From the NCBI GenBank assembly GCA_030841185.1, contig JAVEDB010000024.1, positions 1 through 41,182 on the forward strand: a stretch of 41,182 nt of DNA, read 5' to 3'. The first letter of the stretch is position 1. The number at the start of each line of letters is the position of its first letter. Origin of the DNA: Actinomycetota bacterium. Lineage in GTDB: Bacteria > Actinomycetota > Actinomycetes > JACCUZ01. This document shows, piece by piece, positions 1,914 to 37,764 of the stretch. A program made the position numbers and the translations under genes. The notes below the pieces were generated by a model that did not search any database, was not told where the DNA came from, and saw only the letters and a list, made by a program, of their open reading frames with translations.

Positions 1914-2397
1914 CGTGCGGCAGATCCGCGTGCACGGCGTCGCGCAGGTAGCTCATGCGCAGCCGGTGCATCACCGCGAGCGATGCCGCGTTGAACGGCT
2001 GGGTGAACGCGACGATCTCATCCAGCCCGAGGTCGTTCCAGCCGAGCTCCAGGCCGGCCCGGCCCATCTCGGTGGCGAAGCCGTTGCCCCACTGCGCGGG
2101 CACCAGGCACCAGCCCACTTCGACGACATCGGTGCCCTCGAGCAGCGTGTGCTGGATGCCACCGCGGCCGACGAACGCGCCGTCGTCGATCCGGTACGCC
2201 GCCCAGAGGCCGAACCCGTCGTCGGCCCACCGTTGCGCGTGGATGCGGGTGCGCTCCTCGGCGTAGGCCCGGTCGCGTACACCGCCCATCGTCGCGCCGA
2301 CCAGTGGGTCGGCCAGCATCGCGGCCAGGTCGTCGAGATGGTCCAGGCTGAACGGCTCGAGTCGGAGCCGCTCGGTCGTGGCGACTCCTGCGCTCAC
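1885..2397 (-). CDS. GNAT family N-acetyltransferase (RimJ/RimL-like)
   Basis: '[22 protein letters not shown]...[55 protein letters not shown]'; GTG start at 2397 overlaps the hisC stop by 4 bp. Confidence 0.85.
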
Positions 2398-3470
2398 GCG
2401 AACCCGGCCGCAACCTGCAGGAAGATGTCGTTGGCCGGCGTCTCGCCGATGGTCACCCGGGCGCCCTCGCCGTCGAACGGGCGCACGACGACGCCGGCCT
2501 GCTCGCAGGCCGCCGCGAACTCGGTGGTCCGGTCGCCGAGGCGCAGCCACACGAAGTTGGCCTCCGATGCCGGCAGCGTCCAGCCCTGGTCGCGCAGAGC
2601 GTCGTACACGCGCGAGCGCTCCTTGACCAGTGCCTCGACGCGTTCGAGCAGCTCGTCCTCGGCCTGCAGGGACGCGGTGGCCGCGCGCTGAGCGACGCTG
2701 CTCACGCCGAACGGGACGGCGGTCTTGCGCAGCGCCGCTGCGACGGGGTCGTGGGCGACGGCGAAACCGACGCGCAGTCCGGCCAGCCCGTAGGCCTTGG
2801 AGAACGTGCGTAGCACCGCGACGTTGGGACGGTCGCGGTAGACGTCGAGTGCATCGGGCACGTCCGGGTCGCGGACGAACTCGCGGTAGGCCTCGTCGAT
2901 GACGACGAGGATGTCGCGAGGCACGGCGTCGAGGAAACGCTCGAGCTCGTCGCGGCGGATCGCGGTGCCGGTGGGGTTGTTCGGCGAGCACAGCAGGATC
3001 AGCCGGGTCTTGTCGGAGATCGCGGCGAGCATCGCGTCGAGGTCATGCCGCTCGCCCGACGTGAGCGGCACCTTGACCGACGTCGCACCGGAGATCTGCA
3101 CGATGATGGGGTACGCCTCGAAGGACCGCCACGCGTAGATGACCTCGTCGCCATCCGCGGCAGTGGCCTGGACCACCTGCTGCAGGACGCCGACGGATCC
3201 GGTGCCCGTCGCGATGTGCGACTCCGGCACATCGAAGCGGGCCGCGATCGCCGCCATGAGACCGGTCGCGAACATGTCGGGATAGCGGTTGAACGACTCC
3301 GCCTCGGCCCGCACCACCTCGAGCACCGACGGCAGTGGCGGGTAGGGGTTCTCGTTGGACGAGATCTTGTACGCCGGCGCGCCGGCCTGCGACGAAGCCG
3401 CACGGCCGGGCTTGTACGACGGCACGCCCTCGAGCGAGCTACGCAGTCGCGGAGTAGTGCCGTCAGTCAT
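2394..3470 (-). CDS. hisC: histidinol-phosphate/aromatic aminotransferase (HisC family)
   Basis: 358 aa; class I/II PLP aminotransferase with 'SSNENPYPP', '[12 protein letters not shown]', 'VIDEAYREF', '[18 protein letters not shown]'. Confidence 0.9.
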
Positions 3471-3507: not shown

Positions 3508-4146
3508 TCAGCCAGCAGAGGGCAACGCCACGAGGCAGAGACGCGGATCCTCGTGGTAGCGCGCCACCAGGTCAGCGGTCGCGCGGTCGAGGCGGGTGTG
3601 CAGTGCCTCGCGGTAGGACGACAGGACGCTCTCGGCGTTGGCCAGCCCGGCGAACAGTGCCGCGCGTTCAGCGTCGTCGAGCTCGTCGACCCCACTCGCC
3701 CACAGCTCCGGAAGTTTCGGCAGGATCGGTATCCCGCCGTCGGGGTGCAACATCAGCACGACCTGCCGCCCGCCCAAGGCCCGCTCCTCGGTGAGGACGC
3801 GCCGGACCGCGTCATGGTCTCCGGGTCGGCTGTCCGCACGGAGCAGGTCGCGCCGGCCCTGGACCAGGCGGCGCCAGTACGACGCGCGCAGTTCCTCGTC
3901 GAGCAGCGTGCGCCGGTAGGCGCGCAGCCGGTCCAGCGTCATGTGGTCGAGCTCCGGGCAGCGCTGCGGACGGGTCTGCCCGACGCTCGTCCGGACCGGC
4001 GGGACCGGCACGGGGGTCGTCGGTACGCCGGGGACCCTCGTCAGGGCGCGAGGAGGTGGGGGCGACGGTTCCGCGCTGGGCATCGAGCTAATGGCTGCCA
4101 CGTTCCACCCATCGACCTGCGCCGTACGTCGCTTGATCACTCTCAC
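3508..4146 (-). CDS. rsiG: RsiG-like (AmfC-type) c-di-GMP-responsive anti-sigma factor
   Basis: Two copies of the RsiG signature: E85-x3-S89-x2-R92-x3-Q96-x3-D100 and E172-x3-S176-x2-R179-x3-H183-x3-D187, in predicted helices around a central 'ILPKLPEL' segment. N-terminal start uncertain. Confidence 0.75.
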   Translation of the reverse strand: MRVIKRRTAQVDGWNVAAISSMPSAEPSPPPPRALTRVPGVPTTPVPVPPVRTSVGQTRPQRCPELDHMTLDRLRAYRRTLLDEELRASYWRRLVQGRRDLLRADSRPGDHDAVRRVLTEERALGGRQVVLMLHPDGGIPILPKLPELWASGVDELDDAERAALFAGLANAESVLSSYREALHTRLDRATADLVARYHEDPRLCLVALPSAG

Positions 4147-4245: not shown

Positions 4246-7200
4246 CTAGCTCTGGGCCATGTCGACGAAGCGGGAGTAGTGGCCCTGGAACGCGACCGTG
4301 ATCGTCGCGGTCGGCCCGTTGCGGTGCTTGGCGACGATGAAGTCGGCCTCCCCCGCCCGGGGCGACTCGCGCTCGTAGAGCTCCTCGCGGTGCAGCAGCA
4401 CCACCATGTCGGCGTCCTGCTCGATCGAGTTGTGCACCGCGACGCCGTCCGCGACGAAGTTGTGCGTGCCGGGAACGGTGGCGTCGAAGACGTCCTGCTC
4501 CCCAAGACTCGTGATGGAAACTACGCAGTCCCAGAGGACGTCGTTGGTGGCGGTGATCTCCAGGTCGGACTGCGCGAGGGTCGCGGCGAGCTCACCCAGC
4601 ACTGCACGGGGGCGCTCCTCGTCGAGGACCGCGACCGCACCGGCAGCGGTGTCGCCGGCAGGCTGATCACCGGCGTCGGCAGCCGCGAAACCGTGACGGA
4701 GGTGCGACGGGCGGTGCTCGAAGAGCCGGTGCACCTTCGTCCACACCTCGTCCTGGGGCCGGGACCGCTGACCACGGACGGAGGTCTCGGCGAGCACCCG
4801 ACGCAGCATCCGTGCCGCCTGGAGGCCGGGGAACCCGATCTCCTGGAGGAAGCGTCGCTGGTCGTCGGTCTCGGCGATCTCGACCGAGTCGCCGCGGATC
4901 GTGACCGAGATGCCGAACCGGAGCAGCAACCGGGCGACCGTCTCCGCGAGCGCTCGGTCACCGGCCGCGAGTGCGATCACTCCGCGGCCCTGGCTGTCGG
5001 CGTCGACGACACCCCGGTCCTGCCAGAGGTGCCATAGCAGCAGCGAGATCTGACGCTTGGGCAGCTGCGCGACCTCGTCCGGGAGTGCTGGTGCGCCCCG
5101 GAGAGCGGCGACGTCGGCGTCGGCCCAGCCGTCGACGGTCTCGAGTGGCGCCGGGAGGTGACGCGGCACGGCAACCCGGGAGCCGGGTCGCAGCTCTCCC
5201 AACGGCCGCCACCCGGCGTACGTGAGGAAGGGGTGGTTGGCGGTCGCCTGCACGGACTTGCCCGACGCGAGGGTCAGGGCGAAGACCTCCTTGCGTCCGC
5301 TGGGGAACACCGACGTCATCGTGCGCGGCCGGTAGCGCAGCTTCTCGTCGAGGGACCAGACCGGGATGTCGCGTGCGCCAGCCGCGAGCAGCTCGCCGAG
5401 CGTCACCCGCGCGCCGGTGTCCGCCCGGGTCACGTACGTCGACGCCGGCAGACACCCGGACTCGCGAAGGTCGGACATCTGCGGCTTCTTGTCGGTGCGC
5501 TGCTCGGACGCACGGTTGAGCTGCGAGATGGCGATGACGGGCACTTCGAGCTCCTTGGCGAGCAGCTTGAGCGCCCGGGAGAACTCCGACACCTCCTGCT
5601 GCCGGCTCTCCACCCGCTTGCCGCTGGACATCAGCTGGAGGTAGTCGATGACGACGAGCTTGAGGTCGTGGCGCTGCTTGAGCCGGCGGCACTTGGCCCG
5701 GATCTCCATCATCGACATGTTCGGTGAGTCGTCGATGAACAGCGGCGCGTTGGACACCTCGCCCATCCGGCGGGCGAGACGGGTCCAGTCGTCGTCGGTC
5801 AGCTTGCCGGTGCGCATGTGGTGCAGCGGCACCCGAGCCTCGGCCGAGAGCAGTCGCATGGTGATCTCGTTGCGGCTCATCTCCAGCGAGAAGATGCAGG
5901 TCGCAAGCTGGTGCTTGATTGCCGCTGACCGCGCCACATCCAGCCCGAGCGTGGAGTTGTGTGTCGGAATCATGGTGGGGCCGGCGAGGTAGAGGTGCTC
6001 CGCGTTGTCGACCTCAACGCAACGGACCGGCACGTTCGTGATGCGTCGAACGGCGATGATGTTTCTCGAACCGATCTTGACGCTCCTACCGGAGCGACGT
6101 TCCTTGTGGACCAACCGCTTCCGCGGTAGCCGGAACACGTCGTCGTTGGTCGAGAACGTCAGCGTGTAAGCGATCGACGAAGACTCTCGCCGGCCCTTTA
6201 CGCACTTGGTGCTGAGGCCGCACTTGTAACCGAGGCTGACGATGAGCTCACGGGTGTTCATCGCGAGCCGTTCGCAGGTGACCGCGAACTGCACGGATCC
6301 ACCAGCCGTCACGGTGCCATCCGTGTCCAGCAGCCCCGCAAGAAGGTCCCGACGCTGCCGCTCGGATGCCCGCAGGTAGACGGCCGGGATGTGCTTGTTC
6401 CCAAGAAGGCCCAGGGTCCGCAGCAGGCCTTGATCGTCCAGACCCGTGCCCGCGCTCACCCGAAGGCCTTCGGCCTCGATGTACATAGCGATCTCGGGGT
6501 CCGCACTGGTGAACCGAGCACCCGAGGAATGCCCGTCACCCAGCCACACCCCGAGGGCGTAGGGAGCCAACGGCAGAGGAACCTCAGGGAGCCCGAGTGG
6601 TGCCGCGTTCTTGACGCTGTGGTTGAGGCGCTTGTCGCCCGTGCCGAGTCGCAGCGTGCGGGCGATCTCCTCCGTGGTCTTGACCGAGGCGAAGGTGCGC
6701 TGCGATCGATAGCCGTTGTAACCCACGAGAGCCGCCTGTGCCGACTTCCGCGACGCCCTGGTGTCCGTCAGCCAGCCGTGCTCGCCGTCGGCGACGATCG
6801 TGGTGCCGTCGGAGAAGACGACCTCGTAGCAGCGTCGGTCCTCCAGCACGGGCGTCGCCGCGATGACGGTCGTGGGGAGGCCGTCGGCGCCCAGCAACCG
6901 GTCGCCGACCCGAACCTCGCCCATCGTGGTCCAGCCCTCGGGCGTAGCAAGCGGGGTGTCCAACGCCAATGCCTTGCCCACGGCCGGTCGAGCCGCCACG
7001 ACGATCATCTGTCCGGGGTGCAGACCGTTGGTCAGCTCGTCGAAGTCGGCGAACCCCGTCGGCACCCCGACCATCTCGCCGCCGCGCGAGCCGATCGCCT
7101 CGATCTCGTCGAGCGTGCCCTCCATGATCGCGGAGAGCGGCAGGTAGTCCTCGGACGTACGCCGGTCGGTGACCGCGTAGACCTCGGCCTGCGCCGCATC

Positions 7201-7650
7201 CACGACGTCGTCGGCGTCACCGTCACCGGTGAACCCCATCTGCACGATCTTCGTGCCGGCCTCGATGAGCCGCCGCAGGATCGCGGTCTCGCGCACGATC
7301 CGCGCGTAGTAGCCGGCGTTGGCCGCGGTGGGTACCGACGAGATCAGGGTGTGCAGGTAGGGACCACCACCCACCCGGCCCAGCTCACCGCGCTTCTGCA
7401 GCTCGGCCGCGACGGTCACCGCGTCGGCGGGCTCACCGCGGCCGTAGAGGTCGAGGACCGCCTCGTAGACCAGCTCGTGCGCGGGACGGTAGAAGTCGTG
7501 GCCGCGGACCACCTCGACCACGTCGGCGATGGCGTCCTTGGACAGCAGCATGCCGCCGAGCACCGACTGCTCGGCGATGAGGTCCTGGGGAGGCGTGCGC
7601 TCGAACTGCGCGGTCGTCGGCGCCGCGCTCGGGAACTCAGCCACGCTCAC
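4246..7650 (-). CDS. dnaB: replicative DNA helicase DnaB, interrupted by two inteins
   Basis: GTG start at 7648-7650 with upstream 'GAAGGTGAG'; exteins 'PPQDLIAEQSVLGGMLL', Walker A 'RPAVGK^ST', 'VIDYLQLMSS', 'RESG^SIEQDADMVVLLHRE'. Removing both inteins leaves about 453 aa, a normal DnaB length. Confidence 0.95.
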   Translation of the reverse strand: MSVAEFPSAAPTTAQFERTPPQDLIAEQSVLGGMLLSKDAIADVVEVVRGHDFYRPAHELVYEAVLDLYGRGEPADAVTVAAELQKRGELGRVGGGPYLHTLISSVPTAANAGYYARIVRETAILRRLIEAGTKIVQMGFTGDGDADDVVDAAQAEVYAVTDRRTSEDYLPLSAIMEGTLDEIEAIGSRGGEMVGVPTGFADFDELTNGLHPGQMIVVAARPAVGKALALDTPLATPEGWTTMGEVRVGDRLLGADGLPTTVIAATPVLEDRRCYEVVFSDGTTIVADGEHGWLTDTRASRKSAQAALVGYNGYRSQRTFASVKTTEEIARTLRLGTGDKRLNHSVKNAAPLGLPEVPLPLAPYALGVWLGDGHSSGARFTSADPEIAMYIEAEGLRVSAGTGLDDQGLLRTLGLLGNKHIPAVYLRASERQRRDLLAGLLDTDGTVTAGGSVQFAVTCERLAMNTRELIVSLGYKCGLSTKCVKGRRESSSIAYTLTFSTNDDVFRLPRKRLVHKERRSGRSVKIGSRNIIAVRRITNVPVRCVEVDNAEHLYLAGPTMIPTHNSTLGLDVARSAAIKHQLATCIFSLEMSRNEITMRLLSAEARVPLHHMRTGKLTDDDWTRLARRMGEVSNAPLFIDDSPNMSMMEIRAKCRRLKQRHDLKLVVIDYLQLMSSGKRVESRQQEVSEFSRALKLLAKELEVPVIAISQLNRASEQRTDKKPQMSDLRESGCLPASTYVTRADTGARVTLGELLAAGARDIPVWSLDEKLRYRPRTMTSVFPSGRKEVFALTLASGKSVQATANHPFLTYAGWRPLGELRPGSRVAVPRHLPAPLETVDGWADADVAALRGAPALPDEVAQLPKRQISLLLWHLWQDRGVVDADSQGRGVIALAAGDRALAETVARLLLRFGISVTIRGDSVEIAETDDQRRFLQEIGFPGLQAARMLRRVLAETSVRGQRSRPQDEVWTKVHRLFEHRPSHLRHGFAAADAGDQPAGDTAAGAVAVLDEERPRAVLGELAATLAQSDLEITATNDVLWDCVVSITSLGEQDVFDATVPGTHNFVADGVAVHNSIEQDADMVVLLHREELYERESPRAGEADFIVAKHRNGPTATITVAFQGHYSRFVDMAQS
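4429..5454 (-). other. intein 2 in dnaB (RESG^/^SIEQD insertion site, 342 aa), Cys1 type
   Basis: 'RESG^CLPASTYVTRADTGARVTLGEL', block B 'ATANHPFLT', block F 'DVFDATVPGTHNFVADG', block G 'VAVHN^S'. Endonuclease domain looks degenerate. Confidence 0.93.
5956..6972 (-). other. intein 1 in dnaB (Walker A insertion site, 339 aa), class 3-type, with LAGLIDADG homing endonuclease
   Basis: Starts with Ala ('GK^ALALDTPLATPEGWTTMGEV'), block B 'DGEHGW', HEN motifs 'LGVWLGDGHSSG' and 'LLAGLLDTDGTV', block F 'VRCVEVDNAEHLYLAG', block G 'IPTHN^S'. Boundaries checked codon by codon. Confidence 0.93.
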
Positions 7651-7954
7651 TGCTTGCTCACCTTCTTCCCCCCGCGCCGTCGGCCGTGCCGTTGTCCCCA
7701 GTGGTACCGGCCGCCACCCACAAGACGTACCGACAGCGGGCTGACCGTAGGTCCCGCGAGCACGCGACTCAACTGAGCCTGTGGACGGAGAGGGGGACGG
7801 GCTGTGAGGCCGGCGCGGCGCCCCTGTGCACGCGCCTGTGCACGCGGCTGTGAATTGCCGGGCGATCGACACCGGACCCACGCTCACCAGGTGGGCGGAC
7901 GCTCGTCCACGGCCTGTGGACGAAAGAAAGTTTGCGCCCCTCTACCCTCGGCGC

Positions 7955-36232: not shown

Positions 36233-36895
36233 GTGCGGGAGGCTCCAGGGCGCCCGGACGACTCGGGCCGCACCGATGGCGAGCTGCTGCGCGACGCGGC
36301 CGAGGGCGACCGCGAGGCGGTCGGCGAGCTGTTCGGCCGGCACCGCGACCGGTTGTGGGCCGTCGCCGTGCGCACCCTGGGGGACCGCGAGGAAGCGGCC
36401 GATGCGCTGCAGGACGCGTTCGTGTCCGTCCTTCGCACCACCTCGGCGGGGGGTTCCGCGGCGTTCCGCGGCGACTCTGCACCGTCCACGTGGCTGCACC
36501 GGGTCGTCGTCAATGCCTGCCTGGACCGGGCCCGCCGCCGCGCGGTGCGTCCCGCCGACCCGTTCCCCGACGCGGAGCCACCGGCCCGCGGACCGGATGC
36601 GTTCTCGGGGGTGGAGACCGCGCTCGACCTCGAGCGGGCGCTGGACGTGCTCCCGCTGGACCAGCGGGCTGCGCTCGTGCTCGTGCACATGTACGGATGG
36701 TCTGTGGAGGACGCCGCCGAGGTCCTGGACTGTCAGCCAGGGACGGTGAAGAGCCGGTGCTCGCGCGGGCGAGCGCGTCTGGTCACGGTGCTGGGCGCGG
36801 CCGGGGGGAACCGAGACACCTCCGACGGCGTCCCATCTCAGACCGTCCCGACTGACCCTGCCAGCGCCGCGAACGGAGGTGACCCGACGCCATGA
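36233..36895 (+). CDS. sigM: ECF RNA polymerase sigma factor SigM
   Basis: 'DREAVGELFGRHRDRLWAVAVRTLGDREEAADALQDAFVSVLRT', 'LPLDQRAALVLVHMYGWSVEDAAEVLDCQPGTVKSRCSRGRARL'; position before anti-sigma/trxB. Confidence 0.92.
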   Translation: MREAPGRPDDSGRTDGELLRDAAEGDREAVGELFGRHRDRLWAVAVRTLGDREEAADALQDAFVSVLRTTSAGGSAAFRGDSAPSTWLHRVVVNACLDRARRRAVRPADPFPDAEPPARGPDAFSGVETALDLERALDVLPLDQRAALVLVHMYGWSVEDAAEVLDCQPGTVKSRCSRGRARLVTVLGAAGGNRDTSDGVPSQTVPTDPASAANGGDPTP

Positions 36896-37764
36896 GCCCC
36901 ACCGAGCCCGCCGCCGTCCCGCCCGTCGGGGACCATCCCGACCTGGAGACGCTCGCGGACCTCGACGAGGGACTGTTGGAGCCTGCGCAGGCCACGGCGG
37001 TGACCGCGCACATCGACGGTTGCCCCACGTGCCGCGACGCCGCGGCGACCCTCGCCGACCTGCCCGCTCGCCTCGCCGGCCTGTCCGACGTCGGTCCGGT
37101 GCCGGACGACGTCGTGGCGCGGCTCGACGGCGCGCTGCGGGACGAACTGACCCGGCCGGTGCCGGGACAGACCGCCGTCACGGTGACACCGATCGCCGGC
37201 CGCGGGTCGCGCCGCCGGCTCGGCCACGACAGCCGGTTCCTGCAGGCTGCCGCGGTGCTGGTGCTGTTGCTCGCCGTGACCGCCGTGGGGGTGTCCGCGG
37301 TGATCAGCCGGCACGGGGGGAACACCACCACCAGCGCGGGCGATGCGGCCGGGCGCGAGGCCGCCGCCCCCGGGGCCAAGACGTTGTCCTCGACCTTCGA
37401 GGTGGTGTCGTCCGGCAGCAACTACACGCGCAGCACGCTGGCCGGCGCGATCCCCGGCCTGCTGCTCACGCAGGGGTCCCGGATGTCGAGTCCGTCCGGG
37501 TCGGTCGCTCCCCAGGCCACCGACAGCAATGATCCCGAGCGGCTGCGCGAGGGGCCGGCGCTGGCCCGATGCGTCGCCGCGCTCGCCGGAGCACCCGCCA
37601 CGCCGCTGGTCGTCGACATCGCTGCGTACGAGGGCAAGCCGGCCACCGTGATCGTGCTTCCGACCCCGGACGACGCGGGGCACCTCGATGTCTGGGTGGT
37701 GCGCCCGACCTGCACCGAGGCGAACGCGCAGGTCCTGCTTTTCCAGCGTGTCGTGCGCCCCTGA
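36892..37764 (+). CDS. cognate anti-sigma factor (zinc-finger-like HxxxCxxC, single TM)
   Basis: 4-bp overlap with sigM; 'HIDGCPTCRDAAATL'; TM 'FLQAAAVLVLLLAVTAVGVSAVI'. Confidence 0.88.
   Translation: MSPTEPAAVPPVGDHPDLETLADLDEGLLEPAQATAVTAHIDGCPTCRDAAATLADLPARLAGLSDVGPVPDDVVARLDGALRDELTRPVPGQTAVTVTPIAGRGSRRRLGHDSRFLQAAAVLVLLLAVTAVGVSAVISRHGGNTTTSAGDAAGREAAAPGAKTLSSTFEVVSSGSNYTRSTLAGAIPGLLLTQGSRMSSPSGSVAPQATDSNDPERLREGPALARCVAALAGAPATPLVVDIAAYEGKPATVIVLPTPDDAGHLDVWVVRPTCTEANAQVLLFQRVVRP

Follow-up and report, generated by a model that had tools for sequence, protein, structure and literature searches.

The window, as the whole stretch of 41,182 nucleotides analysed here is called, carries an RsiG-family gene between hisC and dnaB. 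The features of this locus are listed below; types A, B and C denote groups of the phylogenetic tree of the family.

2394-3470, minus strand: hisC (histidinol-phosphate aminotransferase), 37 nt downstream of the RsiG-family gene and next to it at all seven type-C loci
3508-4146, minus strand: RsiG-family paralog of the SYWRR clade, type C, assigned from Pfam, trees and orthologs (the window gene)
3586-3633, minus strand: putative c-di-GMP motif 2, E172-S176-R179-H183-D187, in predicted helix 2, from the sequence, the seven type-C sequences and the structural model
3634-3846, minus strand: 71-aa linker between the motifs, with the SYWRR-clade stretch P-I/P-L-P-x-L-x-x-L-W, partly of low confidence in the model
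3847-3894, minus strand: putative c-di-GMP motif 1, E85-S89-R92-Q96-D100, in predicted helix 1, from the sequence, shuffles, the seven type-C sequences and the model
4246-7887, minus strand: dnaB with intein insertions, upstream of the window gene and its neighbour at type-C loci where the contig extends far enough

The window gene begins with GTG, encodes 212 amino acids as called and has a GC3 of 0.86. Its start codon is uncertain, since conservation among the orthologs sets in only near residue 60. The name hisC follows the first reading of the locus and our own reading of the protein rather than a family search. The dnaB gene apparently contains two inteins, one at residues 822-1153 (identified with Pfam) and one at approximately 309-644 (located by eye).

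Both the profile score and the twin motifs place the window protein in the RsiG family. The protein matched the Pfam family PF22802 (RsiG) with 58.7 bits (cut-off 27, E 4.6e-16), and a profile of the SYWRR clade found the Streptomyces venezuelae RsiG structure 6pfj in the PDB (E 1.9e-13). Residues 85-100, ELRASYWRRLVQGRRD, match the signature E(X)3S(X)2R(X)3Q(X)3D exactly, and residues 172-187, ESVLSSYREALHTRLD, match the same signature with His183 replacing Gln. When the window protein was shuffled, two matches to E...S..R...[QH]...D were obtained in none of 20,000 shuffles and at least one match in six. The original prediction had placed both motifs at the right coordinates, although the string that it gave for motif 1 contained one E too many. 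The complete ligand motifs are under purifying selection: none of the ten motif residues (among them Q in motif 1 and H in motif 2) varies among the seven type-C sequences, namely the window protein and its six orthologs, and dN/dS between the window gene and its orthologs was approximately 0.3-0.5 in our own Nei-Gojobori count. Judged from these residues, binding of c-di-GMP by the window protein is likely.

The AlphaFold model of the window protein contains two long helices (17-50 and 104-145; mean pLDDT 80), and the residues of both motifs fall inside them. The three best fold matches in the PDB by Foldseek were all chains of S. venezuelae RsiG (probability 0.99-1.00, TM 0.51-0.55), with modest E-values of 0.02-0.18. 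The structure prediction that had been proposed as a check on the RsiG assignment thus came out in its favor, and the model is consistent with the antiparallel coil of the RsiG family at the level of helices and overall fold.

The genome to which the window belongs (3.0 Mb in 277 contigs, 94% complete) has three RsiG-family genes, namely the window gene and one gene each on contigs C56 and C67. The C56 gene (L033:5196-5753) is of the canonical type and has Asp instead of Glu at the first position of motif 1, DADLSYIRRMLQGRMD. The C67 gene (L034:11817-12362), a second member of the SYWRR clade and of type B, is located between nth and crp, on the strand of crp and directly upstream of it, an arrangement shared by most type-B loci. 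The same genome encodes one strong WhiG/FliA-family sigma factor, on contig C212 (282 bits; cut-off 189.6), and many GGDEF proteins (27 matches), so that both searches suggested by the original prediction found what they were aimed at. By our own reading of the open reading frames, the WhiG gene adjoins dprA- and yifB-like genes. The encoded protein carries VKYVAGR, which fits K-x3-G-R, the WhiG residues that touch c-di-GMP (PMC8325347). Other sigma factors found in this genome are more distant from WhiG, and one of them adjoins an RsbW-like anti-sigma gene by our own sequence reading. No sigma gene of the genome is linked to the window gene, and a type IV pilus-type locus is present on contig C43. 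Twenty-seven GGDEF matches in 3.0 Mb seem many for an actinobacterium of such size.

Phylogenetic analysis split type A from types B and C and the sequences of family f12 with a support of 100/99, and type C formed one clade with a support of 100/100. A second, quicker tree to which the C56 gene was added gave the same groups, with the C56 gene among the canonical type A. The position of type C inside the SYWRR clade differed between the two trees, and it may or may not derive from the type-B gene of its own family. Type A, the canonical RsiG, includes four large genomes of family f18, presumably Streptomyces, and adjoins ansA-, BKACE- and DUF4388-type genes in many genomes. Type B is located at nth-[B]-crp in many actinobacterial families, with nth or crp recognised beside 39 of the 41 loci in the tree. 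Type C was found in the family of the window alone (its own genome and six of seven relatives); no copy was seen outside this family (f1) in a sample of 71 other genomes of the class and among the best 80 loci of the contig search.

The window gene therefore falls outside the canonical clade, on the opposite side of the 100/99 branch, and its product has neither the canonical linker nor the canonical C-terminus. That it is the RsiG ortholog of this organism was ruled out by the trees, by the neighbourhood and by the presence of the C56 gene. The description "RsiG-type" in the original prediction holds for membership in the twin-motif family, but not for being the organism's own RsiG, since the canonical type is encoded on C56. 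The SYWRR clade is a separate, apparently undescribed branch of the RsiG family.

Relative to canonical RsiG, the SYWRR clade has kept the ligand motifs, while its linker is shorter and its C-terminus different. Motif 1 is complete in types A and C and nearly complete in type B. With the position of motif 2 set by best score, which leaves single outliers unsure, the Q/H position of motif 2 is His in 78 of 82 type-B and 7 of 7 type-C sequences and mostly Gln in type A (24 of 28), the final Asp of this motif is retained in all type-C sequences but in only 32 of 82 type-B sequences, and the linker measures 70-71 aa in type C, with medians of 72 in type B and 84 in type A. The replacement of Gln by His had been taken in the original prediction as a possible change in ligand stoichiometry or affinity. 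As a sign of altered binding, however, His183 is unsupported: the replacement need not alter binding, because His is near-invariant in the SYWRR clade and the naturally His-bearing RsiG of Conexibacter woesei binds c-di-GMP (PMC8325347).

The RsiG family and WhiG were found together in 49 genomes, the RsiG family only in four, WhiG only in none and neither in 26 (Fisher p 5e-17, with WhiG scored at E 1e-55 and in a test that ignores relatedness). SYWRR-clade genes without a canonical RsiG occur in Nocardioides and in family f12, whose genes are clade relatives of the window gene and not its orthologs. In each of the six Nocardioides genomes searched, the RsiG family is represented by one gene, of the SYWRR clade, and the best WhiG-family sigma gene is located on the same contig, 0.4-19 kb away. 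In N. caldifontis (L218:7893-9184) the SYWRR gene shares 4 nt with the WhiG-family sigma gene, which has the same orientation, and the two likely form a two-gene sigma/anti-sigma operon; this overlapping pair from a named strain would be a convenient starting point for further work. A type IV pilus cluster of family f12 (L236:1385-10269) includes pilM, pilN, a prepilin peptidase gene and a WhiG-family sigma gene, and the RsiG-like gene is located there with a pilT-type gene on one side and a pilB-type gene on the other; in Nocardioides sp. URHA0032 a pilB-type gene directly follows the SYWRR-clade gene. The linked sigma factors of Nocardioides and f12 retain K-x3-G-R. By analogy with these clade relatives, the window protein would also have a sigma factor as its partner.

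In genomes with two or three RsiG-family genes, WhiG (for example at L035:3425-4339) shows approximately 69-89% identity to the WhiG of the window's genome across families. Such strong conservation is perhaps due to several binding partners.

Fifty-three of the 79 genomes in the sample carry the RsiG family, and, by our own count, at least 39 of the carriers have more than one RsiG-family gene. A survey published in 2021, based on reciprocal best hits among reference genomes, recorded a second copy only for Acidothermus cellulolyticus, out of 134 genomes (PMC8325347). The difference may result from the method of that survey and from the present sample, in which many carriers are fragmented assemblies of uncultured bacteria. 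Type B, to which the published Acidothermus copy may or may not belong, is present here in metagenome-assembled genomes assigned to Acidothermus and Acidothermaceae; the window gene differs in being of type C and in its location at dnaB-hisC.

Comparison with characterized systems showed the closest likeness to S. venezuelae RsiG (PDB 6pfj/6pfv; PF22802), with which the window protein shares the twin E(X)3S(X)2R(X)3[Q/H](X)3D motifs in two predicted helices of one chain, the matches in sequence and fold, and a WhiG with K-x3-G-R in the same genome. It differs from S. venezuelae RsiG in belonging to the separate clade, in the W after SY in motif 1 and in the His of motif 2, and from canonical RsiG in its linker of 71 aa as opposed to 82-96 aa, its C-terminus and its neighbours. 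Unlike the gene of Streptomyces, the window gene coexists with a canonical-type gene. The motif 1 region also matches the single-motif, homodimeric RsiG of Rubrobacter and Thermoleophilia (PDB 7lq2, 7lq3, 7lq4). In contrast to that protein, the window protein contains both motifs and a long linker in one chain, and therefore need not dimerise. For Rubrobacter, control of type IV pili by the RsiG switch has been proposed (PMC8325347), which is paralleled by the SYWRR genes in the pilus clusters of Nocardioides sp. URHA0032 and f12.

Taken together, these results make it reasonably probable that the window protein, with the architecture of RsiG, functions as a c-di-GMP-dependent anti-sigma factor acting on a WhiG-type sigma factor. 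The single chain would fold into an antiparallel two-helix coil with one E-S-R-(Q/H)-D motif per helix, and both motifs together would hold a c-di-GMP dimer. The protein loaded with c-di-GMP would sequester a WhiG-type sigma factor, presumably the single WhiG of the genome, and falling c-di-GMP would lead to its release. Given that a canonical RsiG and another SYWRR-clade protein are encoded alongside it, the window protein is most likely an additional brake on WhiG; its loop and C-terminus would make other contacts than those of canonical RsiG, and its affinity or expression is probably different as well. Counting against the reading as an anti-sigma factor for WhiG are the canonical RsiG, which is present for the known job, and the lack of linkage between the window gene and a sigma gene.

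RsiG of S. venezuelae touches WhiG in their complex through its long loop and its C-terminal region (PMC8325347), so that the window protein appears to have kept the ligand site while its expected partner surfaces have changed, and its partner may therefore differ. It is possible, but rather unlikely, that the protein binds c-di-GMP and has been re-aimed at a different sigma factor or at a non-sigma protein. This would fit the three RsiG-family genes facing one WhiG above the family cut-off, the changed linker length and C-terminus, and the stable gene order, in which type B has crp and type C has dnaB/hisC as its neighbours instead of a sigma gene. However, the WhiG-linked proteins of Nocardioides and f12 have a similar linker (PLP or PEL, then LW/MW) and a similar C-terminus (ARY.E.P), and the alternative sigma factors in the genome are those described above as more distant from WhiG, one of them already beside an anti-sigma gene.

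Complete ligand motifs next to diverged effector regions, in a genome with many GGDEF proteins and several receptors of the same family, would also be expected of a c-di-GMP buffer or decoy, or of a competitor of canonical RsiG, that does not itself sequester a sigma factor. We regard this as improbable, because the linker and the C-terminus are strongly conserved across the type-C orthologs, which argues for a protein partner. The chance that the window gene is a functionless relic of a duplication is slighter still: the gene does belong to a set of three in its genome and occupies an unremarkable locus, but all ten of its motif residues are shared by seven genomes, its dN/dS is in the range given above and its place before hisC is fixed.

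A broader reading is offered tentatively, at somewhat less than even chances: the SYWRR clade would be a second widespread actinobacterial branch of c-di-GMP-armed anti-sigma factors with its own docking mode, usually encoded at nth-crp, to which the family of the window has added a further member, and the three receptors would converge on one WhiG or act on several targets. If this is correct, one second messenger would exert graded or target-specific control through three c-di-GMP receptors. In 2021, RsiG-WhiG was described as the sole known sigma/anti-sigma pair targeted by c-di-GMP, and RsiG as practically single-copy (PMC8325347). Two or three RsiG-family genes per genome, with a distinct and conserved second clade, are common among the genomes searched here, and the question of how one second messenger, several related receptors and a single sigma factor work together is now testable.

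Promoter searches were also carried out. The WhiG promoter consensus TAAA-N14-17-GCCGATA had no matches, and TAAA-N15-GCCGATAA with two mismatches had 13 matches as compared to 12 in the reversed control; since there is no excess over the control, a WhiG regulon is not established. The pattern TCAA-N14-16-GCCGATA, built post hoc from two earlier hits, had three matches versus none. A WhiG-promoter-like element, TCAAG-N14-GCCGATAG, is located 40 nt before a GGDEF gene on contig C31 (L245:1216-1282) and also approximately 0.1 kb before a TadE-like gene (recognised by eye) on contig C167 (L246: about 2975-3099). The former site resembles the situation in Rubrobacter, where cyclase genes are the proposed targets. 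Both sites are only a lead.

Elsewhere in the window, at 36233-37764, an ECF-sigma-like gene followed by an anti-sigma-like gene was noted by eye near a trxB-like gene.
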